64,000 nt of DNA from an uncultured Mycoplasmatota bacterium. Its GTDB lineage: Bacteria; Bacillota_I; Bacilli_A; RF39; UBA660. Below the pieces are notes generated by a model that was not told where the DNA came from, ran no database searches, and saw nothing but the letters and a program-made list of their open reading frames with translations. The stretch is taken from positions 1-64,000 of the forward strand of contig URZL01000001.1 in the NCBI GenBank assembly GCA_900552335.1, given 5' to 3'. Position 1 is the stretch's first letter, and the number at the start of each line of letters is the position of its first letter. Position numbers and translations under genes: made by a program. Positions 13,047-43,025 of the stretch are shown here, piece by piece.

Positions 13047-13089
13047 AAAAACTGATATATACCAAAAGTCGGTATTATATCAGTTTTTT
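13045..13089. terminator. Bidirectional terminator between prepilin and germination operon
   Basis: A long stem AAAAACTGATATA...TATATCAGTTTTT with an inner TACC/GGTA pairing lies between two convergent genes, with A and T runs on both sides. It overlaps the stop codons. Confidence 0.9.
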
Positions 13090-14179
13090 ATTGCTTTTTC
13101 CTAATTTTTATTATGATTAAAAGAAAACATGGAATGAAAAAGAAGAATACGCTTAATAATACAGGGTAAAACGATAATAACATATGATTTACAAACGTAT
13201 TATTTGGAAAAATAAAAATACTTGTAAATAGAATAACACATAGAATTATAAAGATAATTCCATTTGTCACTTTACCCTCTTGCCAAGAAAATACTTGAAA
13301 AAAAGTCTTTTTAATATAATAACATCCCATTGTGCAAGTGACGTATAAAAATAGAATCCACATAATTGCAACAATACTTTCAATCCTGTCAAAAATTGAT
13401 AAAAGAGAAATTCTTTTTAAAATATTATAGGTTGGATATTGATATAAAAGAGATAATTCAATTCCAAATACAGATAAAACAACATAAGTAATGGTACAAA
13501 CAACAAAAGAAGATAAAAGATAGGTAATAATCATTCTTTTAGTAAGTTTTTCATTATTTCGAATATCTTTTTTTGGAATAATGGTAAGCAAAAAAAGAGG
13601 AAGTGTAATGTAACAAACATCGTAAAAGCTGGCATGTATCGATGGACCAATTCCATTGACTAAAAGTGGCATAATATTTTCTGGCATAGTTTGAATTGAT
13701 AAACCAATCAGTCCTACAATAAATAGGAAAAAGGAAATATATCCAAATATTATAATGCTTCTTGTGAATGTTTGAAACGGATGAATTAATGCATATAAAA
13801 TAGGAATGACAAACATAATAGCAATGAAAAATTTAGGTGTACTATAAAGATACTCTGAACTTATAAAGTTTGTTAAATTATAAAAATTGACAATGATATA
13901 AAATGATATCATTCCACATATAAATAAACTAATGATTTTACCAAAAATCCCAAATTGTTCATACAATATGTCATTGATATTAGAATCATTTTTATAATTC
14001 ATCAATTTAATAAAAATAATTAATGGAACAAAGCCAATAATTATACCGATAATAGGCGCAATGCAAGCATCTTGTTTTGCTACACTAATGAGTGTATTAA
14101 AAGTTATTCCAATTACACCAGAGCTCATCAAAAACCACATTAAGACGTTTATTTCCATATTTTTAATTTGTGACTTCAT
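13088..14179 (-). CDS. gerAB: Spore germination permease subunit, GerAB type
   Basis: This 363-residue protein has about ten hydrophobic helices in the pattern of the endospore germination permease family (APC superfamily), starting with EINVLMWFLMSSGVIGI and ending in a basic tail. GerAB-type subunits sense germinants such as amino acids in the spore inner membrane with the A and C subunits. It is the last gene of a three-gene minus-strand operon and overlaps the C-subunit gene by 17 bases. The germinant cannot be predicted. Confidence 0.92.
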   Translation of the reverse strand: MKSQIKNMEINVLMWFLMSSGVIGITFNTLISVAKQDACIAPIIGIIIGFVPLIIFIKLMNYKNDSNINDILYEQFGIFGKIISLFICGMISFYIIVNFYNLTNFISSEYLYSTPKFFIAIMFVIPILYALIHPFQTFTRSIIIFGYISFFLFIVGLIGLSIQTMPENIMPLLVNGIGPSIHASFYDVCYITLPLFLLTIIPKKDIRNNEKLTKRMIITYLLSSFVVCTITYVVLSVFGIELSLLYQYPTYNILKRISLLSIFDRIESIVAIMWILFLYVTCTMGCYYIKKTFFQVFSWQEGKVTNGIIFIILCVILFTSIFIFPNNTFVNHMLLSFYPVLLSVFFFFIPCFLLIIIKIRKKQ

Positions 14180-15371
14180 CTTGTAATCCTCCTATCGATT
14201 GTTCTAATGACCCTTTTGTTTGTAAATTTACCTTTACTTCATGATTAATTTTTAAATTTGGAAATACATCATGACTCCAATCTTGATGAATATTTAAAAA
14301 ATAATGAGGGAACTTTTTATAGATTAGATTCCCAAATCCAAAAATATCAGATTTGTATTTTTTTTGTGCACAGTCAATTGCTTGATTTAGAATACTTTTG
14401 ACATTATCTTCAATAGCAGATTCAATATCTTGAATTGTATCAACTTCATCTATGTTAAGAGAACTAGATAACTCCCTAATGGCAGCATCTGCTTTGTAAT
14501 TAACAGTAATAACTGGTGTATTATCCACCATATTGACTTCATTAGAAACAGAAATATTAGTTAAGTTAACAGTAATGTAATGACTTTTATATTCAAATGT
14601 TGCTGTAGTACTAGTAACATTATGATTGATAACATTAATCCCTCTACTTTCTTTTTCATTAGCATATCCAACTAAGACATCGTCATCAAAAATGGCAACA
14701 TTTCCTAATTTTAGAACCGCTTCTGGTACAGATTGTTGTAAACTATCACTACTTTGTGCTTCCTCCGCATTTCCTAAAATTAGAATAGAAGGTGCAGTAG
14801 CTTCTGCTCCTGGTTTTACGATATTTTCAATAAATTTACTGTAGGTTATACTAGGAGATACAGCCTGTGAATTAGTAGCAGATTTTAAATTAAAATAAAT
14901 GTTTTGAGATGGAAAAGTTTCTAATGGAGATAATGTAGAAATAACATCGGATGCCTTTGCTTCATGAGAAATTATGATAAAAAAACGTTTAACAGATTCG
15001 GGATCGCGTAGAAAGTAATCTAGTATCGGATATAATCCATCTTTTGCTACTTCTTCATTAATAACAATTACAGTCAAATGTCCAATATAAATGTCTTTAG
15101 AAAGTTGTAAATTGATATTACGAATAGCTTCAGAAATGGTATTTCCTTTATCTGAATATACGATAGTTTGACTTTCACCTTCTTTAGAACTAACTTGTGA
15201 TTTTTTAGCATTTGAAATTAAGACGCTTACCTCATATTTACCATCTTCCGATTTATCTACGGCAATTCCGGTAGAAATTGCTAGTTGATTTAATTCTCTA
15301 TAGTTCCAGCATCCAGTTAGCAAGAAAAGAAAAAAGAAAGGGAAAATAAATTTAATTTTCATGAGAATCAC
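14163..15371 (-). CDS. gerAC: Spore germination lipoprotein, Ger(x)C type
   Basis: This protein of about 402 residues (399 if it starts at the internal MKIKF) has a lipoprotein signal ending in LLTGC, followed by the WNYRELNQLAISTGIAVDK motif characteristic of Ger(x)C proteins. It is exported and lipid-anchored at the spore inner membrane, where it forms the germinant receptor with the A and B subunits. It overlaps both neighbours (20 bases with gerAA, 17 with gerAB), so the three are translationally coupled. Full length for the family. Confidence 0.93.
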   Translation of the reverse strand: MILMKIKFIFPFFFLFLLTGCWNYRELNQLAISTGIAVDKSEDGKYEVSVLISNAKKSQVSSKEGESQTIVYSDKGNTISEAIRNINLQLSKDIYIGHLTVIVINEEVAKDGLYPILDYFLRDPESVKRFFIIISHEAKASDVISTLSPLETFPSQNIYFNLKSATNSQAVSPSITYSKFIENIVKPGAEATAPSILILGNAEEAQSSDSLQQSVPEAVLKLGNVAIFDDDVLVGYANEKESRGINVINHNVTSTTATFEYKSHYITVNLTNISVSNEVNMVDNTPVITVNYKADAAIRELSSSLNIDEVDTIQDIESAIEDNVKSILNQAIDCAQKKYKSDIFGFGNLIYKKFPHYFLNIHQDWSHDVFPNLKINHEVKVNLQTKGSLEQSIGGLQDEVTN

Positions 15372-16821
15372 CTAATCTTCTAATATTTTTTTTGGTTAAA
15401 TAAGTTGGCCTAAAGAACATTTTATTTCTTGGAATTCTTCTAATAGCATCATCTTGATCTTTTAAATAAAGTGGTGAAAAAGGAGTTAAATATGGCAACC
15501 CATTTTCTTCCATACTACACAATTTAAGTGTCAAAATGATACAACAAGAAACAAATCCAATTAATCCTGCAAAAGCAGAAAAGAAAATGAAAATAATTCG
15601 CCAAGTTCTAAGAGCATTAACAAAATCGATATCTGTAAATAATAATCCGCTAATCGAAGTAATAGCTACAATAATAATTACGATAGGGGATACAACACCG
15701 GCACTTACAGCAGCTTCCCCTAATATCAAAGCCCCAACGATACTAACGGCAGCTCCCATAGCATTTGGAATTCTAATATCACTTTCTCTTAAGATTTCAA
15801 AAGCTATAATCATAATTAGAATTTCAAAAGCGGTAGGAAATGGCACTCCACTTTGTTGAATCGCTATTGAAATTAAAAGGTCATTAGGAATAATTTCTGG
15901 ATTAAAGGTAGTTAAAGCTATATAAAAGCCTGGTGTTAGCAATGTCATAAAAAAAGCAATTATTCTTAGTAGGCGTGTTACGTTAACGTTTAATGCTTTT
16001 TGATAATAATCATCTGGATTATGAATAAAATCGACAAATAAAGACGGAGTAATTAAAACGAAGGGACTATTTTCTACTAAAATAACAATTTTGCCGTCTA
16101 AAAGAGAAGTACAAGCTAAATCAGGTCTTTCTGTGCTTTGAAATTTTGGAAAACAAGACTTTTGAACAGGTTCCAAAAAGCTTCTTAAATATCCACTATC
16201 TATGATTCCATCAATATCAATTTTTTCAAGCTTCTGTACAATATTATTTACTTTATCTTGTTCTACAATGTCATCAATATAGATAACATTAACTTTAGAC
16301 TGTGTTCTTCTTCCAATCATTAATTCTTTAAATATTAAATTGGGATCCTTAATTCTTTTTCGAATTAATCCAATATTAATAGAATTATTTTCTGTAAAAC
16401 TATCTTTTGGACCACGAATAACAGTTTCTGAGGTAGCTTCACTAACGCCTCTATCAAGTTTTGTTTTTGTTTCTATTAGGATAGCTTCTTTACAGCCTTC
16501 TACTAAAATACAAGTAAAACCGCTTGCTAGTTTAGAAAAGATATCTTCTATGGAATCACTCGTTAATAAATGACTGTTATAAATTGTATTTTTTAAAGTA
16601 GCATACACATCATCAAAAATACTTTTTTTATTTTTAATGATTAAACTGATATTTTGAACTAGAAAATCACTAATTTTATCATCACTACTTACACTTTCCA
16701 AATAAATATAACCTATTTTTTTGCCATCCCAATCTAAAATACGATCTACAAAATCGCTACTATTTTGATTATAATTTTTAATTGTTTCAATATTTTTTTG
16801 TATATTTTTTTGTAATTTCAT
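15352..16821 (-). CDS. gerAA: Spore germination protein, GerAA type
   Basis: This 489-residue protein has the GerA architecture: a soluble N-terminal part of about 270 residues, including the FTCILVEGCKEAILIETKT and VRGPKDSF segments, then several membrane helices from about residue 285 and a short cytoplasmic tail. It is the A subunit of a germinant receptor and the first gene of the A-C-B operon. A forespore-type promoter candidate lies upstream (16838-16866). It is intact and of normal length, which supports a sporulating host. Confidence 0.94.
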   Translation of the reverse strand: MKLQKNIQKNIETIKNYNQNSSDFVDRILDWDGKKIGYIYLESVSSDDKISDFLVQNISLIIKNKKSIFDDVYATLKNTIYNSHLLTSDSIEDIFSKLASGFTCILVEGCKEAILIETKTKLDRGVSEATSETVIRGPKDSFTENNSINIGLIRKRIKDPNLIFKELMIGRRTQSKVNVIYIDDIVEQDKVNNIVQKLEKIDIDGIIDSGYLRSFLEPVQKSCFPKFQSTERPDLACTSLLDGKIVILVENSPFVLITPSLFVDFIHNPDDYYQKALNVNVTRLLRIIAFFMTLLTPGFYIALTTFNPEIIPNDLLISIAIQQSGVPFPTAFEILIMIIAFEILRESDIRIPNAMGAAVSIVGALILGEAAVSAGVVSPIVIIIVAITSISGLLFTDIDFVNALRTWRIIFIFFSAFAGLIGFVSCCIILTLKLCSMEENGLPYLTPFSPLYLKDQDDAIRRIPRNKMFFRPTYLTKKNIRRLGDSHEN

Positions 16822-26643: not shown

Positions 26644-26694
26644 CGTAGATAAAATAGATAAAATAAGTTATAATAATATAGGAGTGTGATAGCA

Positions 26695-29436
26695 ATGAAA
26701 CCACTTGTGCTATGTATATTAGATGGCTTTGGTATTCGAAAAGAAAAAAAAGGGAATGCTTTAGCAAAAGCAAATATGCCAAATTATGACAAATTGGTAA
26801 AAGAATATCCACATAGTTTATTATCAGCTAGTGAAGAAGCAGTAGGATTACCACATGGTCAAATGGGTAACTCAGAAGTTGGACATTTTAATATTGGAGC
26901 CGGAAGAGTAGTTTATCAACCACAAGAACAAATTAATGAAGAAATTAAAAATGGAAAATTTTACGAAAATAAAAATATTTTAGATGTCATTGATTATGTA
27001 AAAGAAAACAAGTCAAAGTTACATATTTTTGGATTATTAAGTGATGGTGGAATTCATTCTGATATTCACCATTTGATGGCACTAATTGATATGTGCAAAA
27101 AAAATGGAATAAAAGAAATTTATTATCATTTATTTTTAGATGGAAGAGATACATTGCCAACAGAAGCACTTTCTTATATTGAACAACTAGAAGAAAAAAT
27201 AAAAGAAGTTGGTTTTGGAAAAATAGCTACTATTTCAGGTAGATACTATGCAATGGATAGAGACAATAGATGGGATAGAGTAGAAAAAGCTTATAAAGTA
27301 ATCATTGGAGAAGGTAAAGTTACAAAAGATTATAAAAAGTATATAAAAGATAGTTATGAAAAGAATATAACAGATGAATTTATAGAACCAATTTTAGTGA
27401 ATAAAGAGGGTAAAGTAGAAGATAAAGATGGTCTCATTGTATTTAACTATAGACCAGATCGCTTGAGAGAGTTATTTAAAGCATTAACCAATCCAAACTT
27501 TAATGAATTTGATCATATTACCTTTAAAAACATTAAACTAGTTACAATGTTTGGCGTAAGTAAAGAAGTCATTTGTACAAATGCTTATCAAAAGGAACCT
27601 TTAGAAAATACACTTGGAGTTTATTTAAGTAAACAAAATTTAAAACAATTAAGAATTGCTGAAACAGAAAAGTATGCGCATGTTACTTATTTCTTTGATG
27701 GAGGAAAAGAATTAGAACTAAAAGGAAAAGATCAAATATTGATTCCATCTCCTAAAGTTGCTACCTACGATTTAAAACCAGAAATGAGTGCGTACGAAAT
27801 AACTGATAAATTAATAGAAGTGATGGGTAATTACGATGTTATTATCCTTAATTTTGCCAATGGAGATATGGTTGGTCATACTGGTAATTTTGATGCAACA
27901 GTACAAGCTTTAGAACATTTAGATGTTTGTTTAGGAAAAATTTATGATAAAGTAGAAGAATTAAAGGGAACTTTAGTGATTACAGCTGATCATGGAAACT
28001 GTGATACCATGATAGATCAGGAAAATAGAGAAGTAACATCCCATTCTATGAGTAAGGTTCCTCTCATTATTACAAATAAAAATATTCGTTTGAAAAATGG
28101 TAAATTAGCTGACATAGCGCCAACTATTTTGAGTTTATTAAAAATGCCTGTTCCAAAAGAAATGACAGGAGAAAATTTAATCCAAAAAAAGAATACGAAA
28201 TCAAACATATTTATTATAGTATCACTTTTATTTCTAAGTTTTTTTACTATTTTTTACAGCGTTCGTTTTATAAAGTATTATAAAGAAGAACATCCTAGTA
28301 CTCAGACAGAATCTAATTTAAGTGATGTACTAAAAGAACAAGTAGTTACAACTGGCAGTGGTTTATACTATCAAAATAAAGAATATATATATAAAGGACA
28401 AGTCGAAAATAATTATGTAAATTATTCTGGCTTTTTATTTCGAATTGTTAAAATCAATGAAGATAATTCCATTAAATTAGTTACAGATACGTCTATTGTT
28501 AATTTAAAATTAAAAAATCATTATAAAACATCAGATATCAGAAATTATTTAAATGATGATGGATTAGAAGATACAGGAATTTTTTATAACCAATTAATCT
28601 ATCCAGAAATGTATTTAAAAAGTACTAGCTTCTGTATTCAAGAAACATTAGAAAATCATAATTGTGTAGAACAAATAAATGATAAAGTTGGCTTATTAAC
28701 GTATAAAGAATATGTTCAAGCTTTAGGAAATGAATCTTATTTAAATAATGGAACTTATTATTGGTTGATGTCAACTTCTGCTCAAAATTATTATGTATTT
28801 ACCGAAGGCGGAGTAAGTAGTGAAACAAATGGTTACTATGGAATTAGACCTGTCATTACTTTAAAAGACAATGTAAAAGTAGTAAGTGGTAATGGCACAA
28901 AAGAAGATCCATACCAAATTGAAAAGAATAATATTACAGTAGGAAGTTATATGAAATATAGTAATTATTTGTGGAAAATTATCGATATTGAAGAAGATGG
29001 ATACAAACTTGCTTTAACAGAACTATTAGAAGAACGTTCTTTTTCTAAAGCATCAAATCAATATAATGCAAATGATAAAGGTTCCATTGCTTATTATCTA
29101 AATCATGATTTTTATGAAAAATTAAATAAAAATAATTTATTAGAAAAAGATTTTTATATAGGAAATTATAGTGACAATTACCAATCCGCTTATGCTGACA
29201 CCGTGAAATCATATGTTGGGTTAATGTCGGTAACAGATAATTTTATCAATGATTTTTCAAATTATTATTTATTAACACCAGATACAGAAGATATGGTATA
29301 TGCAGTAGGAGATAATAGTAAATTAATAGTATCATCCATTGATGAACTAAAAAAAATAAGACCAGTTATTTATGTCAGTAAAAATGTTGTAATGACTGGA
29401 AGTGGTACAATAGCAGATCCATATGTAGTAGAATAG
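26695..29436 (+). CDS. gpmI: Cofactor-independent phosphoglycerate mutase fused to a membrane segment and ectodomain
   Basis: Residues 1 to about 498 are a complete iPGM: CILDGFG, the MGNSEVGH serine that carries the phosphate, DGRDT, SGRYYAMDRDNRWDRVEKAY, NFANGDMVGHTG, TADHGNCD and HSMSKVP all keep the metal and catalytic residues. It interconverts 3- and 2-phosphoglycerate. Where iPGM normally ends (MTGENLI) the frame runs on through an A7 tract into a hydrophobic helix (about 505-523) and about 390 residues forming two related modules, each ending RPVI(T/Y) plus G-x-GT-xx-DPY (near 732-740 and 902-910). With the enzyme inside, the modules would face outside. ATG 26695 follows GGAGTG; GTG 26686 is an alternative. 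The mutase is certain; whether the fusion is real needs checking. Confidence 0.88.
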   Translation: MKPLVLCILDGFGIRKEKKGNALAKANMPNYDKLVKEYPHSLLSASEEAVGLPHGQMGNSEVGHFNIGAGRVVYQPQEQINEEIKNGKFYENKNILDVIDYVKENKSKLHIFGLLSDGGIHSDIHHLMALIDMCKKNGIKEIYYHLFLDGRDTLPTEALSYIEQLEEKIKEVGFGKIATISGRYYAMDRDNRWDRVEKAYKVIIGEGKVTKDYKKYIKDSYEKNITDEFIEPILVNKEGKVEDKDGLIVFNYRPDRLRELFKALTNPNFNEFDHITFKNIKLVTMFGVSKEVICTNAYQKEPLENTLGVYLSKQNLKQLRIAETEKYAHVTYFFDGGKELELKGKDQILIPSPKVATYDLKPEMSAYEITDKLIEVMGNYDVIILNFANGDMVGHTGNFDATVQALEHLDVCLGKIYDKVEELKGTLVITADHGNCDTMIDQENREVTSHSMSKVPLIITNKNIRLKNGKLADIAPTILSLLKMPVPKEMTGENLIQKKNTKSNIFIIVSLLFLSFFTIFYSVRFIKYYKEEHPSTQTESNLSDVLKEQVVTTGSGLYYQNKEYIYKGQVENNYVNYSGFLFRIVKINEDNSIKLVTDTSIVNLKLKNHYKTSDIRNYLNDDGLEDTGIFYNQLIYPEMYLKSTSFCIQETLENHNCVEQINDKVGLLTYKEYVQALGNESYLNNGTYYWLMSTSAQNYYVFTEGGVSSETNGYYGIRPVITLKDNVKVVSGNGTKEDPYQIEKNNITVGSYMKYSNYLWKIIDIEEDGYKLALTELLEERSFSKASNQYNANDKGSIAYYLNHDFYEKLNKNNLLEKDFYIGNYSDNYQSAYADTVKSYVGLMSVTDNFINDFSNYYLLTPDTEDMVYAVGDNSKLIVSSIDELKKIRPVIYVSKNVVMTGSGTIADPYVVE

Positions 29437-29444
29437 GAGTAGTT

Positions 29445-30449
29445 ATGCGTAAAATAGTAGTAACAGTATTGATTATTTTAGATATTTTGGCATGTACATT
29501 TTTGTTTTTTACGTATGGTCCAATTGACTATTTCAGAAATTTATTAGTGACAACAGCAATGACAACAAAATCTCACCACTATTTAGCGAAAACTTTATAT
29601 AGTGATGAAACCATTTATAAAATTATGGATTCCAATTATATGGAAGAAGTAGATGAAAATACCGATTTGACAGCTATTAACATTAGTAAAATAAACGAAC
29701 AGACTAGTTATGACTCTATTTATGAGGAACAAATTTTATCCAGAAAAAAAGAGGATGTGTATAAAATTATTCCATTGTCTGGGACAGGTTATCAAGGATA
29801 TTTAGTGGCTGTTTATGACCCATCTAGAATTCAACTTGTTACCAGTAATTATCTAGGAACTAGAGGAGAATTTCTAGAAAGCATGGCAAAAAGAGAAAAT
29901 GCTCTTATAGCTATTAATGCTGGTGGCTTTGCTGATGCAGGTGGAGTTGGTAATGGTGGTATTCCAACAGGTACCTTAATAAAAAATGCGAAAATTTTAT
30001 ATCAAGGAGTAGATACTGGTTGGGGTGGCGGTATTGTTGGTTTTACAAAAGATAATATTTTAATGCTTTACAAAGGAAGTGCTGAAGGAGCCATACAGGC
30101 CGGAATAGAGAATGCTGTTGAATTTGGACCATTTTTAATTGTCAATGGAAAAAGGTCTATTGCGAAAGGAAATGGTGGATATGGTATTTCTTCTAGAACA
30201 GCTATTGGGCAAAGAAAGGACGGTATTGTCTTGTTTGTTGTAATAGATGGTAGACAACCAGGATATAGTTTAGGTATTAGCATGTCCGAATTAACAGATA
30301 TATTTGTTCGTTATAGGGCTTATAATGCTGTTAATCTAGATGGTGGAGCTTCTAGTAGTTTGGTTGAAAATGGAAATTTAATTAGTAAGCCATGTGCCAT
30401 TAGCGCTACTGGTGAAAGATGGATACCAAGTGCTTGGATGGTAAAATAA
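29445..30449 (+). CDS. Phosphodiester glycosidase family protein (NAGPA domain), membrane-anchored
   Basis: This 334-residue protein has an N-terminal membrane anchor (about 5-25), a linker and a NAGPA-type domain (about 140-334): INAGGFAD, GIPTGTLIKN, FGPFLIVNGK, SSRTAIGQRKDG, VIDGRQPGYSLGISMSEL and NLDGGASSSLV. The domain removes N-acetylglucosamine from phosphodiester-linked glycans in animals; bacterial relatives act on surface or wall polymers outside the cell. It follows the mutase fusion by eight bases and is probably cotranscribed, so both products may sit at the membrane surface. Substrate is unknown; domain assignment is firm. Confidence 0.88.
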   Translation: MRKIVVTVLIILDILACTFLFFTYGPIDYFRNLLVTTAMTTKSHHYLAKTLYSDETIYKIMDSNYMEEVDENTDLTAINISKINEQTSYDSIYEEQILSRKKEDVYKIIPLSGTGYQGYLVAVYDPSRIQLVTSNYLGTRGEFLESMAKRENALIAINAGGFADAGGVGNGGIPTGTLIKNAKILYQGVDTGWGGGIVGFTKDNILMLYKGSAEGAIQAGIENAVEFGPFLIVNGKRSIAKGNGGYGISSRTAIGQRKDGIVLFVVIDGRQPGYSLGISMSELTDIFVRYRAYNAVNLDGGASSSLVENGNLISKPCAISATGERWIPSAWMVK

Positions 30450-36778: not shown

Positions 36779-37552
36779 ATGAATAACAAATATTCTAAGA
36801 AAATCCAATGTATTTTAGAGGAAGGAAAAAAATGTAAAGAAAAATTAGTGGTAATTGGGCCAACCGGTCCACAAGGACCAACTGGTCCAGCTACCATTAC
36901 AGTAGGACAAACAACTACTGGAAATCCAGGAACTAATGCTTCTGTCACCAATGTAGGTACTAATGAAAATGCCATTTTGAATTTCACAATTCCGGCAGGT
37001 ATGACAGGTCCAACCGGTCCACAAGGTCCAACTGGCCCAATTGGACCACAGGGTCCTCAAGGTATACAAGGATTAACAGGAGAAACTGGTCCAGCAGGTC
37101 CAGCAGGCCCAGCAGGTCCAGCCGGAACTACTCAAATCAGTGCATATGGTAGTAAATACGATAGTGGTGGGAACAATATTACATTAACAGAAAATGTATT
37201 TTCAACAATCCCATTAAATAGTAGTGGTCCACTTACTGGTATGACAGGTGAAACAACAAATGCATTGACAATAACGGAGACTGGCGTATATAAAATTGAT
37301 TATTATTTTCAAGGTTCACCGAATGTGAAATCTACTTTAACATTTGAAGTAATTCAAAATACAAATCCAATCAGCAGTTCAACAATTATTAAAGAAGTAG
37401 AAGCGAATGCAGATGAAAGTTTTAATGGAAGTGTTATTGTTAATTTAACTGCTAATGATAAAATTAATTTAGGGCTAGAATCTAATGTAGCAACTGAAGT
37501 TTCACCATCTACAGGTACTAATGCGTATTTAAATATTGTGAAATTATCTTAA
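36779..37552 (+). CDS. Collagen-like repeat protein, BclA-type spore surface protein
   Basis: This 257-residue protein has a short basic N-terminus, a first G-x-y block ([13 protein letters not shown]), an interruption of about 35 residues, a second longer G-x-y block (about 73-120, with [10 protein letters not shown] and repeated GPA units) and a C-terminal beta domain (about 125-257) like the trimeric head of BclA. Such proteins form hair-like trimers on exosporium or spore coat. No secretion signal is visible, as expected for mother-cell synthesised spore-surface proteins. A strong AGGAG site and a sigma-E-like box precede it. A CotZ-like protein at 44 kb fits the same role. Confidence 0.9.
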
Positions 37553-39110: not shown

Positions 39111-39165
39111 AATTGCAATTTTAAAAAGGAGGGATAAAATGAAGAGAATGATAAAAATTGCAATT
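39111..39165 (+). promoter_or_regulatory. Possible hairpin enclosing the adhesin ribosome site and start codon
   Basis: AATTGCAATTTT (39111-39122) is complementary to AAAATTGCAATT (39154-39165), the second copy lying in codons 6-9. The loop holds the AGGAGGG site and ATG 39139. Both copies are near-palindromic, so pairing is possible but not certain. Confidence 0.35.
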
Positions 39166-41379
39166 TTAATTATATCTTTGGTAAATATTAAAAATGTATC
39201 TGCTATTACTCCAAAAGTTATATACATGGAAAATGTATATTCTAATAGAGTATTAGGAGAACAAAAAATGAATGGTAAATTGGGCTATATTTATATAAAT
39301 GGTCAGATAGCTTTTTGTATCGATCCATTTAGAATAATAGGTAATGAATATTCTACACAAGACGAACTTTATTCAACTCTTTATACTGAAGAAGAAAAGA
39401 GACAGATTTCTTTAATTATTCATTATGGAGCCGGAACACATCCTTCAAATCCATATTATTACATGGCCACGCAAGAACTTATATGGAGAATAAAAGGAGA
39501 AGGGGATTATTATTTTACTACGTCAGATTCTTTTGAAGGAGAAAGAATTAATGTGGAAACATATAAAGAAGAAATTTTAAAAAAAGTATCCAGTCATAAC
39601 TTATTACCAAGTTTTTCAGATACTACAGTAATTGCCCAACTATATGATGATGTTTATTTAAGGGATGAAAACAATGTAATAAATTATTATCAATTATCCA
39701 ATTATAGTAAAAATAAAATTTCAAAAAAAGAAAATGGATTAAGTATTAAATTTTTAGATGAAAATTCTACCGAGTTGGTATTGAATTCCAAAACCGTATC
39801 AGGCTCATCTTCTCATATATATGTTGGTAATGGTCAAAATTTACTTACAGCTTCTCTAGATGAGGAAAAAACAACAGTTGTTCATTTAAAAACAGAAGGA
39901 GTTAGTTATTATTTAAATATTCAATTTCTAGAAAACAATCAATCAATTTTTGGAAAAGTAAAATTTAAAATATATAATTGTAATACTTCTCAATTTATTG
40001 AAAATGGTAAAATCTACGAAAGTAATTATTTTGGTGATTTTCACTCTGATTTTAAATTAGAACTAGGTACTTATGAAATATCATATGTAGAAATTCCCAA
40101 TGGTTATATAGCTCCATTAATGAGTAATAAAATTACATTAGATGAAAATTTAAAAGTAAATAGCAAATATGAATATGAATGGATTCATAATTTAGAAGTA
40201 CCCCAAGGTCATTTAACATTATATAGAACCGCTATCCATACCAATAATAGTGCAATATTATTAAATGACATTGAATATAAAATTTACGCTTCTTCTGATA
40301 TTTATGATGTACATTTTAAAATGATATATAAAAAAGATGAATTAGTAGATATAAGAAAAATTCAAAATGGTCAATTAGATATAGATTTACCATTAGGAAG
40401 TTATTATATTGTAGAAGGAGTTAACTCTTATAATATTCCAACTTTACCAAAACAATTTATTTCCTTTGGTTATAAAGATTCTATCACAGATATTTATTAT
40501 GAAGAATTACATTTAGTTACACCAATGTTAAATCAATATTTTAACATTAATACCAAAATAGAATTATTAGATGGTAATTATATTCCATATAATAATTGCC
40601 AATATGAATTATATGCTAGTGAAGATATTTATTATTTAAATGATCTTGTTTATACAGAGGGTACTTTGATTAGAATACTAACAAGCAATGAAGATGGAAT
40701 GATTCATGAGCGAATAGGATTACCATATGGAAAGTATAGTCTAAGAGAAATAAGAAAAGATATAGATTATGAAGAAATTCCAAATCAATTGATTGAATTT
40801 AATCAAGATAAAACAGAAATTTATTTAAATTATATAAAAAAACTAAAGAGAGGAAATTTAAGCATTACTATAAAAAATCGTAAAGGAAATATGTTAAATA
40901 CTCTAAAATTTTTATATGATAAAGAGTACGATTATGCTATAGAAAATAATCTTATCTTAGAAAGTTTAAAAGTAGGAAATTACACAGTAATTTATGACAA
41001 GGAATATCCTGTTACTATTTTACCGAATAAAACAACTTATTTAGAAATTATATTAAAAAGTAATGAAGAAAATAGAATAGAAGATGTTTCCAAAGAAGAA
41101 GGCAATAAAGATACAGAAAAGGATAATGAAAATAAAAAAGAAGAAATAGACGAAGAATTAAAAAATAATAGTAAAAAAGAAGATCATTTAGAAAATGATG
41201 TAATTCAAAAGGAAGAAATATCAACAAACTATCACAAAAAAGAAAAAAACGGTTCAAATAATGAAATATTAGAATCGGAAGAATTACCAAATACAAGTAA
41301 TTATTTACAAAAATATTATAGATTATTTGTTGGTTTAATGTTAATAGGACTATTACTCCATAAATATGAAAAAATTTAG
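39139..41379 (+). CDS. Sortase-anchored thioester-domain surface adhesin
   Basis: This 746-residue secreted protein has a signal peptide (about 1-22), an N-terminal thioester domain with Cys60 in AFCIDPF and Gln112 in ATQELIW, the pair expected to form an internal Cys-Gln thioester that can bind host amines covalently, several Cna-B/SpaA-like beta domains (about 260-645), a charged Lys/Glu-rich spacer (about 645-710), and a sorting signal LPNTS (716-720) followed by a hydrophobic helix and KYEKI tail. A dedicated sortase gene overlaps its 3' end by 14 bases. An unusually good AGGAGGG ribosome site precedes the start. Host target is unknown. Confidence 0.85.
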   Translation: MKRMIKIAILIISLVNIKNVSAITPKVIYMENVYSNRVLGEQKMNGKLGYIYINGQIAFCIDPFRIIGNEYSTQDELYSTLYTEEEKRQISLIIHYGAGTHPSNPYYYMATQELIWRIKGEGDYYFTTSDSFEGERINVETYKEEILKKVSSHNLLPSFSDTTVIAQLYDDVYLRDENNVINYYQLSNYSKNKISKKENGLSIKFLDENSTELVLNSKTVSGSSSHIYVGNGQNLLTASLDEEKTTVVHLKTEGVSYYLNIQFLENNQSIFGKVKFKIYNCNTSQFIENGKIYESNYFGDFHSDFKLELGTYEISYVEIPNGYIAPLMSNKITLDENLKVNSKYEYEWIHNLEVPQGHLTLYRTAIHTNNSAILLNDIEYKIYASSDIYDVHFKMIYKKDELVDIRKIQNGQLDIDLPLGSYYIVEGVNSYNIPTLPKQFISFGYKDSITDIYYEELHLVTPMLNQYFNINTKIELLDGNYIPYNNCQYELYASEDIYYLNDLVYTEGTLIRILTSNEDGMIHERIGLPYGKYSLREIRKDIDYEEIPNQLIEFNQDKTEIYLNYIKKLKRGNLSITIKNRKGNMLNTLKFLYDKEYDYAIENNLILESLKVGNYTVIYDKEYPVTILPNKTTYLEIILKSNEENRIEDVSKEEGNKDTEKDNENKKEEIDEELKNNSKKEDHLENDVIQKEEISTNYHKKEKNGSNNEILESEELPNTSNYLQKYYRLFVGLMLIGLLLHKYEKI

Positions 41380-41848
41380 TTATTTATTTTTCTTGATAGG
41401 AATGTGTGGAATTTTTTCTTTAATTTTAACGTCATATAATCAAATAAGAAAAAATGATAGGATTATAAACCAAATGCATTTTCAAGAACAAATTCCGGAA
41501 TATTATATAGGCTATATTGAGATAGATACTTTGAAACTTCCTCTAGTTTATGGAGCTACTGAGAAAGAGTTAAATCAAAATTTAGTGGGAATTAGTAAAT
41601 ATTCAACAAAAGATCACTTAATTTTAGCAGGTCATGCTATTCCGGCAGTATTTCAATGTTTATATCATATTTCTATAAATGAAAAAATCATTATTTATAG
41701 AAATAATGATAGTATTACATATTACGTAGATGATTATTATATAACAGATAGTAAAAACTTATCTGTATATCAAAATAATGGTTTAACTTTAATTACATGT
41801 ATTAATCAAGAAAAAAGATTAATTGTTCATGCAAAAACGGCTAATTAA
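41366..41848 (+). CDS. Short sortase, likely dedicated to the upstream adhesin
   Basis: This 160-residue protein has one N-terminal membrane helix (about 5-22) and a sortase domain: IGYIEIDTLKLPLVYG, the catalytic His90 in LAGHAI, Cys145 in LITCI and Arg151 in EKRLIVHA. All three active-site residues are present although the domain is short. It resembles class D or class C-like housekeeping-independent sortases more than SrtA, but class is uncertain. The gene overlaps the LPNTS adhesin gene, so it most likely anchors that protein. Confidence 0.85.
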   Translation: MKKFSYLFFLIGMCGIFSLILTSYNQIRKNDRIINQMHFQEQIPEYYIGYIEIDTLKLPLVYGATEKELNQNLVGISKYSTKDHLILAGHAIPAVFQCLYHISINEKIIIYRNNDSITYYVDDYYITDSKNLSVYQNNGLTLITCINQEKRLIVHAKTAN

Positions 41849-41857
41849 GCCGTTTTT
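41833..41857. terminator. Bidirectional terminator
   Basis: AAAAACGGCT / AGCCGTTTTT perfect ten-base stem with loop AATTA between convergent genes; it contains both stop codons. Confidence 0.92.
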
Positions 41858-42936
41858 ATTTGATAAGGATTTGCTTCTGTTCCATCACCACTTGTTACTA
41901 ATGCATCACCATCTAAATGAATAACAATTTTAATTACACTTAAACTAGATGTAGTAGATGAAATAACAGAAGAAGAAATTTTATAAACTTTATCTGATTT
42001 ATAAGTATCTGCTGTGATAGTCCAAAAAGTTTTATTAAAAGTAGCCATATAATTATAATTTGTACATTCATTTGCAGTTAGATAAGTACAATTAGAATCA
42101 ATACTTGCTAAATTGAACTCATAAGCTTGTAAAAGGGAAATATATTGATTATCTAAAACATCAGAACATTCTGTTTTACCAGTAACATCAAAGCTATCAC
42201 TATCTCTTTTGCCCAAACAAACATTTTGCTTAGCTATATATGATTTCATACTGTCACTAAATTCAGAATCATAAATTTCAGTTAAAGTATCACGCATTCT
42301 ACTGACTCTATAATCATTAATTCCTGTAGAGGTTTGTCTTTCTGAGTTATAACGATCATCCCATACATAAGTGTCATTTCTAGCTGTTTCAATTAATCGA
42401 ATATCCCCGTCTGCCGTTATTTTAATAATTCTCCATAATTTATTATTAAATTTAACATAATTATTGACTTTTTCTCCTCTAAAAACATATTCATTGTTCA
42501 TTTTATATAAACCATAAGAAGAATTAACAATTGTATTATCATTTAAAATAGTATTTCTTAGATTCTTGGATTGGTATTTGTCTCCACAATCTAAAGAAGT
42601 AATAGCTGTATAATGGTCGTTGTTATTTTTAATTTTAATTGTGACTTCACAAGTGGCAGATGCCTCTTTTAAAATATCATTTAATGGTTTTATTTTCTTG
42701 GCATCTACTAATTCTTGATACGATATTGTAGTTTCTTCATCTTTTGCAGGTAAAATATCAACTCTATCTAAAGCATAGCTTAAAGCAACTTTACTGATTT
42801 TGTTTTCAGCAGCATCAAAAGACATTTTTCCACCTACTAGTAAACTAACAATAAATATAACAATTAGGATACCAACCATAATGGCAATTCCTGTTCCAAA
42901 ATATAAATATAATTTTTTATTATTTTTAAAGTTCAT
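41845..42936 (-). CDS. Pilin-like membrane protein with G-x-GT-xx-NPY ectodomain
   Basis: This 363-residue protein has a short basic N-terminus, one membrane helix (about 10-37) and a long outer region. Residues about 45-125 resemble a pilin-type segment with ISYQELVDAKKIKPLNDIL and paired cysteines (CEVTIKI ... LDCGDKY). The rest begins GLYKMNNEYVFRGEKVNNYV and LWRIIKI and ends SGDGTEANPYQI, matching the modules fused to the phosphoglycerate mutase. It has no class III leader. The frame extends to 42987, but ATG 42936 follows GGAGG. Role unknown; surface display is inferred. Confidence 0.8.
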   Translation of the reverse strand: MNFKNNKKLYLYFGTGIAIMVGILIVIFIVSLLVGGKMSFDAAENKISKVALSYALDRVDILPAKDEETTISYQELVDAKKIKPLNDILKEASATCEVTIKIKNNNDHYTAITSLDCGDKYQSKNLRNTILNDNTIVNSSYGLYKMNNEYVFRGEKVNNYVKFNNKLWRIIKITADGDIRLIETARNDTYVWDDRYNSERQTSTGINDYRVSRMRDTLTEIYDSEFSDSMKSYIAKQNVCLGKRDSDSFDVTGKTECSDVLDNQYISLLQAYEFNLASIDSNCTYLTANECTNYNYMATFNKTFWTITADTYKSDKVYKISSSVISSTTSSLSVIKIVIHLDGDALVTSGDGTEANPYQIKTA

Positions 42937-43025
42937 ATGAATCCTCCAAACTACGTCTATTATAACAAAAAAAATATAAATGTACAATCATTTAAAGGAA
43001 AAGCATAAGATTATTAGGGGATAAT

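Follow-up and report, generated by a model that had tools for sequence, protein, structure and literature searches.

A phosphoglycerate mutase fused to a membrane helix and two DUF6273-type modules in an uncultured Mycoplasmatota bacterium and its relatives

The window analyzed here, a 64,000-nucleotide stretch of contig URZL01000001.1 from an uncultured Mycoplasmatota bacterium, contains a gene in which a cofactor-independent phosphoglycerate mutase (iPGM) continues in frame into a hydrophobic helix and two related modules. This join had been proposed in a first-pass annotation made from the sequence alone, and it is confirmed by the open frame and by at least 50 fused relatives. We conclude that the fusion is a real, conserved single-pass membrane protein. 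As to its role, we lean slightly toward a tether, in which the membrane-bound mutase stays on the cytosolic side and also serves to anchor a surface part, with a neighboring glycosidase as partner.

One reading frame for enzyme, helix and ectodomain

26680..26684, + strand: AGGAG, ribosome-binding-site-like, 10 bases upstream of the ATG at 26695 (sequence)
26695..29436, + strand: fusion gene iPGM - transmembrane helix - two DUF6273-type modules, 913 amino acids (frame, Pfam, TIGR01307, alignment, model)
26695..28188, + strand: iPGM domain, residues 1-498, with all 15 checked positions present (TIGR01307, 1ejj alignment)
28195..28290, + strand: predicted single transmembrane helix, residues about 501-532 (hydropathy, model)
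28360..28926, + strand: ectodomain module 1 (DUF6273), residues about 556-744, ending G-N-GT-KE-DPY (Pfam PF19789, models)
28930..29433, + strand: ectodomain module 2 (DUF6273-like by predicted structure), residues about 746-913, ending G-S-GT-IA-DPY (model, hhalign)
28633..28665, + strand: codons for C647 and C657, a cysteine pair that relatives keep or lose together

The stop-free frame spans 26686-29436 and yields 913 residues from the ATG at 26695, a start matched by 27 of 28 aligned relatives (P0022 starts ten residues earlier). A search for relatives with the same fusion had been called for, and residues 490-913 as query returned 207 proteins at E 0.001. Among the 120 matches listed, 28 are full-length fusions, one is a truncated copy of the window protein (P0001), one is an eroded fusion (P0027), 21 lack the enzyme (P0031-P0051) and 69 are more distant module proteins. 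With residues 1-498 as query, 8000 candidates were scored, and the 120 listed comprise 43 fused proteins, 22 of them new, and 77 that are not fused. Besides the window protein, at least 50 clusters are thus fused; they are 889-952 amino acids long, and their added part is 33-99% identical to that of the window. The order of enzyme, helix and binding module is the same in 51 of 51 fused proteins, and because 50 other clusters repeat it, the fusion is not a chance event. Two outcomes had been named beforehand as grounds for abandoning the proposal, a stop or frameshift separating the two parts and separate genes in every relative; these full-length fusions contradict both. An assembly or annotation artifact, such as a frameshift or chimera, is exceedingly improbable: the same join occurs in 50 clusters from several source databases, one of which (P0002, 99% identical) represents 60 sequences, and we rule out this origin of the join.

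The enzyme half scores 688 bits against TIGR01307 (cut-off 331), covering model positions 1-504 of 504, and its best-matching solved chain is PDB 1ejj (565 bits, residues 2-498). Through the 1ejj alignment we transferred to the window numbering the roles of residues in the B. stearothermophilus enzyme, and checked D10, S60, H121, R151, D152, R183, R189, R253, R256, K326, D391, H395, D432, H433 and H450, which we take to be the catalytic serine, the metal ligands and substrate-binding residues. All 15 positions are identical in 51/51 fused proteins and are intact in all 129 iPGM rows, 78 free ones included. Fused and free enzymes lie about equally near a Clostridia iPGM (median 0.509, n=51, vs 0.514, n=77; p=0.08). 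With P0002 left out, fused iPGMs are 57-80% identical to that of the window, and median identity of fused relatives to the window protein is 0.64 for the iPGM, 0.42 for the helix region, and 0.47 and 0.39 for the two modules. The score and the intact active site bear out the proposal of a complete, apparently active iPGM; the enzyme part looks alive and is predicted to be a working mutase.

Compared with GpmI/iPGM (TIGR01307; PDB 1ejj), the fusion has the whole enzyme, 15/15 positions and a similar length to residue 498, after which a helix and some 370 ectodomain residues follow. To our knowledge, known iPGMs end where the helix begins here. Among the papers listed by searches of the open-licence PubMed Central (PMC) literature, we found none on an iPGM joined to a membrane or lectin part, and an iPGM with a DUF6273 ectodomain in these bacteria is without precedent that we have seen there. 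The principle does have precedent in kinetoplastid phosphoglycerate kinases (PGKs) and in known glycolytic fusions. As far as the relevant passages of these sources go, PGKs with PAS, cyclic-nucleotide-binding or transmembrane parts have been described in kinetoplastids (PMC7729029), and PGK-TIM of Thermotoga and TPI-GAPDH of eukaryotes are known fusions (PMC7729029, PMC3527533). The kinetoplastid PAS-PGK and transmembrane PGK resemble the window protein in joining a glycolytic enzyme to a sensory or membrane part, and some forms have lost substrate-binding residues; they differ in enzyme and organism, and no lectin-fold ectodomain is mentioned in those passages (PMC7729029). PGK-TIM and TPI-GAPDH also place a glycolytic enzyme in a fusion, but they join two such enzymes, with no membrane helix or surface part in the accounts cited. 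The earlier suggestion of novelty therefore stands for this particular fusion and falls for the principle, at least on the cited part of PMC7729029.

Predicted membrane topology and the outer modules

Hydropathy peaks at residues 505-523, and the whole-chain model predicts one helix at 501-532, followed by a linker of low confidence at residues 533-538. The predicted template-modelling score (pTM) of that model is 0.53, and its mutual placement of the halves is without confidence. In each of the 50 fused relatives, the hydrophobic peak begins at residue 500-521. Net positive charge is greater on the N-side of the helix in 47 of 51 fused proteins, smaller in 2 and equal in 2. We found no membrane-like stretch within the first 60 residues of the fused rows: the most hydrophobic stretch there has a Kyte-Doolittle average of 1.31, vs 1.64-3.03 for the peaks of the helix. 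The cysteines C647 and C657 are both present in 41/51 and both absent in 10/51, with a single one in 0/51; this all-or-none pattern fits a disulfide outside the cell. Taken together, the charge bias, the N-terminus and the cysteine pair suggest that the mutase is cytosolic and the modules extracellular, which supports the earlier picture of an enzyme tethered inside and a domain displayed outside.

Module 1 matches PF19789 (DUF6273) at 33.3 bits vs a gathering cut-off of 23.5, and module 2 falls below that cut-off in the Pfam scan. That the two modules are related, as had been claimed, is well supported by hhalign (probability 99.7, E 2e-25). The structure prediction that had been proposed as a check gives module 2 a C-type-lectin-like fold; the fold is assigned from the model for module 2, and module 1 is assigned as DUF6273 by Pfam. 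The predicted identity of the modules as DUF6273/C-type-lectin-like adds to the first-pass annotation. DUF6273 (PF19789) is, to take examples from the part of the literature cited, the N-terminal domain of the Thomasclavelia ramosa IgA peptidase (PDB 9qa6; PMC12402451) and a component of phage tentaclins (PMC10743442). Those described domains thus sit in secreted peptidase or phage proteins, whereas the window fusion would carry two in tandem on a cytosolic enzyme.

A related module had also been noticed in a membrane protein at 41.8 kb, and one copy is indeed present there:

41848..42936, - strand: second window protein, in which a segment at the N-terminus, hydrophobic by eye, precedes one related module (BLASTP, profile)

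This protein matches the fusion ectodomain at 27% identity (BLASTP E 1e-11; profile E 4e-25) and has no Pfam match of its own. No further window frame of at least 60 codons matches the module profile at E <= 1. Next to it, on the opposite strand, a large protein that carries thioester (TED) and SpaA domains (39139-41379) is followed by a sortase gene (41366-41848), so that the region 39139-42987 is a pilus- or adhesin-like surface cluster.

Relatives and history of the fusion

Free iPGMs and iPGM-less versions also occur among the relatives. Close free iPGMs (P0171, P0183 and P0195) carry the source labels 'Bacilli bacterium' or 'Firmicutes bacterium.' P0027 (581 amino acids, on a 90.8-kb contig) keeps the helix and both modules and has an iPGM remnant without metal-binding motifs; it aligns to P0024 at 52% identity from iPGM residue 362 onward, and this alignment with the motifs gone identifies it as a fusion that lost its enzyme. 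P0031-P0050 have a homologous helix and two-module ectodomain and differ from the fusion in having no iPGM, where P0027 has a dead remnant; the 6 of these 20 that we inspected show a cytosolic tail rich in Lys and, in module 1, an insert rich in Lys and Glu. We rejected P0121 (80% identical) as a free iPGM within the window's clade: it is a single sequence, probably a broken copy, and its tail beyond the enzyme bears by eye no relation to the family. It was counted as unfused in the 129-domain tree, in the residue check and in the comparison with the Clostridia iPGM and was left out of the topology test.

Across 398 genomes of the phylum of a Clostridia genome (G001), the ectodomain matched 0/398 at E 1e-20, an absence of little weight because the set has no positive control. 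G001 has three weak partial ectodomain matches (best E 3.7e-6), which suggests that related modules probably occur there. An iPGM was found at E 1e-100 in 346/398 of these genomes, and none of their listed iPGM matches extends beyond query residue 530. G001 itself has two full-length iPGM genes, on contigs C44 and C97. Viral contigs contain seven iPGM loci. Open reading frame lists show plain iPGM ends in L028 and L030, those of L026, L027, L031 and L032 match no further than query residues 495-512, and the contig of L029 ends at residue 370. L028 (1-2344) and L030 (1-1560) start with the plain end of an iPGM gene and continue with other genes that are, by eye, partly phage-like; iPGM may lie at prophage borders.

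In a tree of the 129 iPGM domains, fused and free enzymes are clustered yet interspersed, with 8 changes, at least 4 of them forced by supported branches, compared with 40 in shuffles. A single clade of fused iPGMs was rejected on a quick tree (approximately unbiased test, p-AU 1.9e-54). Across the 51 fused proteins, iPGM and ectodomain distances correlate (Mantel r 0.637, reached by 0/2000 permutations), and the nearest neighbor is the same for both parts in 33/51. Ectodomains are closer to the rest than iPGM distances predict in P0020, P0021 and P0024, and farther in P0122, P0124, P0150, P0160 and P0193. The iPGMs of P0020, P0021 and P0024 group with the free P0200, yet they lie as near the Clostridia iPGM as the others do (0.497-0.511), which makes a replacement of the enzyme part possible in this lineage. 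The ectodomain tree unites the enzyme-less P0031-P0050 in a single clade with a long branch, separates P0051 from them on a branch that is very long, and places P0027 next to P0024 within the fused proteins. As the simplest history, these trees suggest that a single ancient fusion was later lost or split several times; the two parts may instead have been joined independently more than once at this position. The interspersion, together with the eroded P0027 and the iPGM-less forms, would also fit a neutral accident, in which a free iPGM gene was read through into a neighboring membrane-protein gene, each half works alone, and the join brings no benefit and is being lost by lineage. We consider this quite improbable, given that full active sites are kept over the deep divergence described above and that the helix lies at nearly the same position in all 50 relatives.

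Genomic neighbors and the proposed role

29445..30449, + strand: NAGPA-family phosphodiester glycosidase, 334 residues, with a hydrophobic N-terminus by eye (PF09992)

The glycosidase frame starts 8 bases past the fusion stop, as first reported, and its identity holds up: it scores 127.8 bits against PF09992 (gathering cut-off 25) and matches NAGPA chains of the PDB by sequence. We examined pairing through contigs of exactly equal length with overlapping source labels, using the 120 listed of 7129 glycosidase homologs (two of which, P0261 and P0301, are labeled 'Bacilli bacterium'). By this measure, in which equal length is not proof of one contig, 15/49 fused clusters are paired with a listed homolog, with 0.15 expected and at most 1 in 120 shifted controls. 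Of the 9 groups that the fused rows form in the ectodomain tree, 6 contain paired clusters, and the smallest paired contig, of 5538 bases, would place the two genes within about 1.7 kb if it is one contig. Free iPGMs are paired at chance level (2/77, 0.55 expected, maximum 3), one pair being too long for its 2099-base contig. One of 22 rows without a working iPGM is paired (P0031/P0271, 3344 bases, from different sources and without a control), and one length match, also without a control, pairs a second mutase with a fused contig (P0011/P0202, 6377). The glycosidase thus appears to be a conserved neighbor of the fusion.

Upstream, 16.9-26.6 kb is a surface-polysaccharide region with an O-antigen-ligase/Wzy-type protein, an ABC-2 exporter and several glycosyltransferases. 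Because the fusion follows this locus and precedes the glycosidase, the mutase could provide a local supply beside membrane users or makers of phosphoglycerates or phosphoenolpyruvate, for instance the phosphotransferase system or a pathway for a surface polymer. However, a Pfam scan of 45/52 window frames of at least 150 amino acids contained no phosphotransferase system gene, and the ectodomain is left unexplained, so that we regard this role as rather doubtful. Spore-germination and spore-surface-like genes also lie near the fusion, including GerA, GerAC and a spore permease. The GerA-type genes (13088-16821) and a collagen/BclA-like protein (36779-37552) suggest that the organism probably makes endospores. 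Elsewhere in the window are an MvaI/BcnI-family restriction endonuclease near the edge (127-867) and 62 promoter-like matches vs 55 expected, for which we make no claim.

These germination genes, and the constant order of enzyme, helix and binding module, would suit a receptor-type enzyme, in which an outer ligand on the lectin-fold modules alters mutase activity, clustering or metal loading and so tunes lower glycolysis to the envelope or surroundings, for example in spore germination, a stage that mutase activity gates in Bacillus. We know of no such control of an iPGM. According to the passages cited, low core pH keeps the B. subtilis mutase inactive, and germination draws on the store of its substrate (PMC9864370), and PAS- and transmembrane-bearing PGKs offer a precedent for glycolytic enzymes with sensing parts (PMC7729029). 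The predicted flexible linker, the single helix, the lack of confident contact between the halves, and the relatives that keep the modules with the enzyme dead or absent make such signaling fairly unlikely. Also unlikely is a more specific form, in which the modules read envelope glycans trimmed by the glycosidase and set mutase activity, which would couple glycolytic flux to wall growth or germination.

The same linker, model and relatives lead us to favor the tether and anchor over signaling. The sequence and model basis for it is the single frame, the conserved order, the intact active site, the helix, the module fold and the conserved neighbor. The cytosolic N-terminal half would convert 3-phosphoglycerate to 2-phosphoglycerate, one helix would span the membrane, and about 370 outer residues would form two predicted C-type-lectin-fold DUF6273 modules that most likely bind glycan or another cell-envelope ligand and may act together with the glycosidase. 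The join itself would most likely fix place, keeping the mutase under the membrane as a cytosolic anchor for the surface part, with location rather than signaling as its point. Several observations weigh against this proposal. The charge bias of the window protein across the helix is small (2 vs 1), 34/49 fused clusters are unpaired among the 120 listed glycosidases, and the glycosidase link depends on equal-sized contigs. Furthermore, P0027 and the iPGM-less forms indicate that the outside function can do without the enzyme, which leaves any benefit of the tether conjectural.

A core glycolytic enzyme inside a surface protein, kept across many bacterial lineages, is unexpected. The fusion offers a natural system for asking whether membrane placement of a metabolic enzyme, or its wiring to outside modules, pays, with free, fused, eroded and iPGM-less relatives as ready-made controls. 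It also provides a shared context for the poorly understood DUF6273 modules and an apparently conserved NAGPA-family glycosidase.
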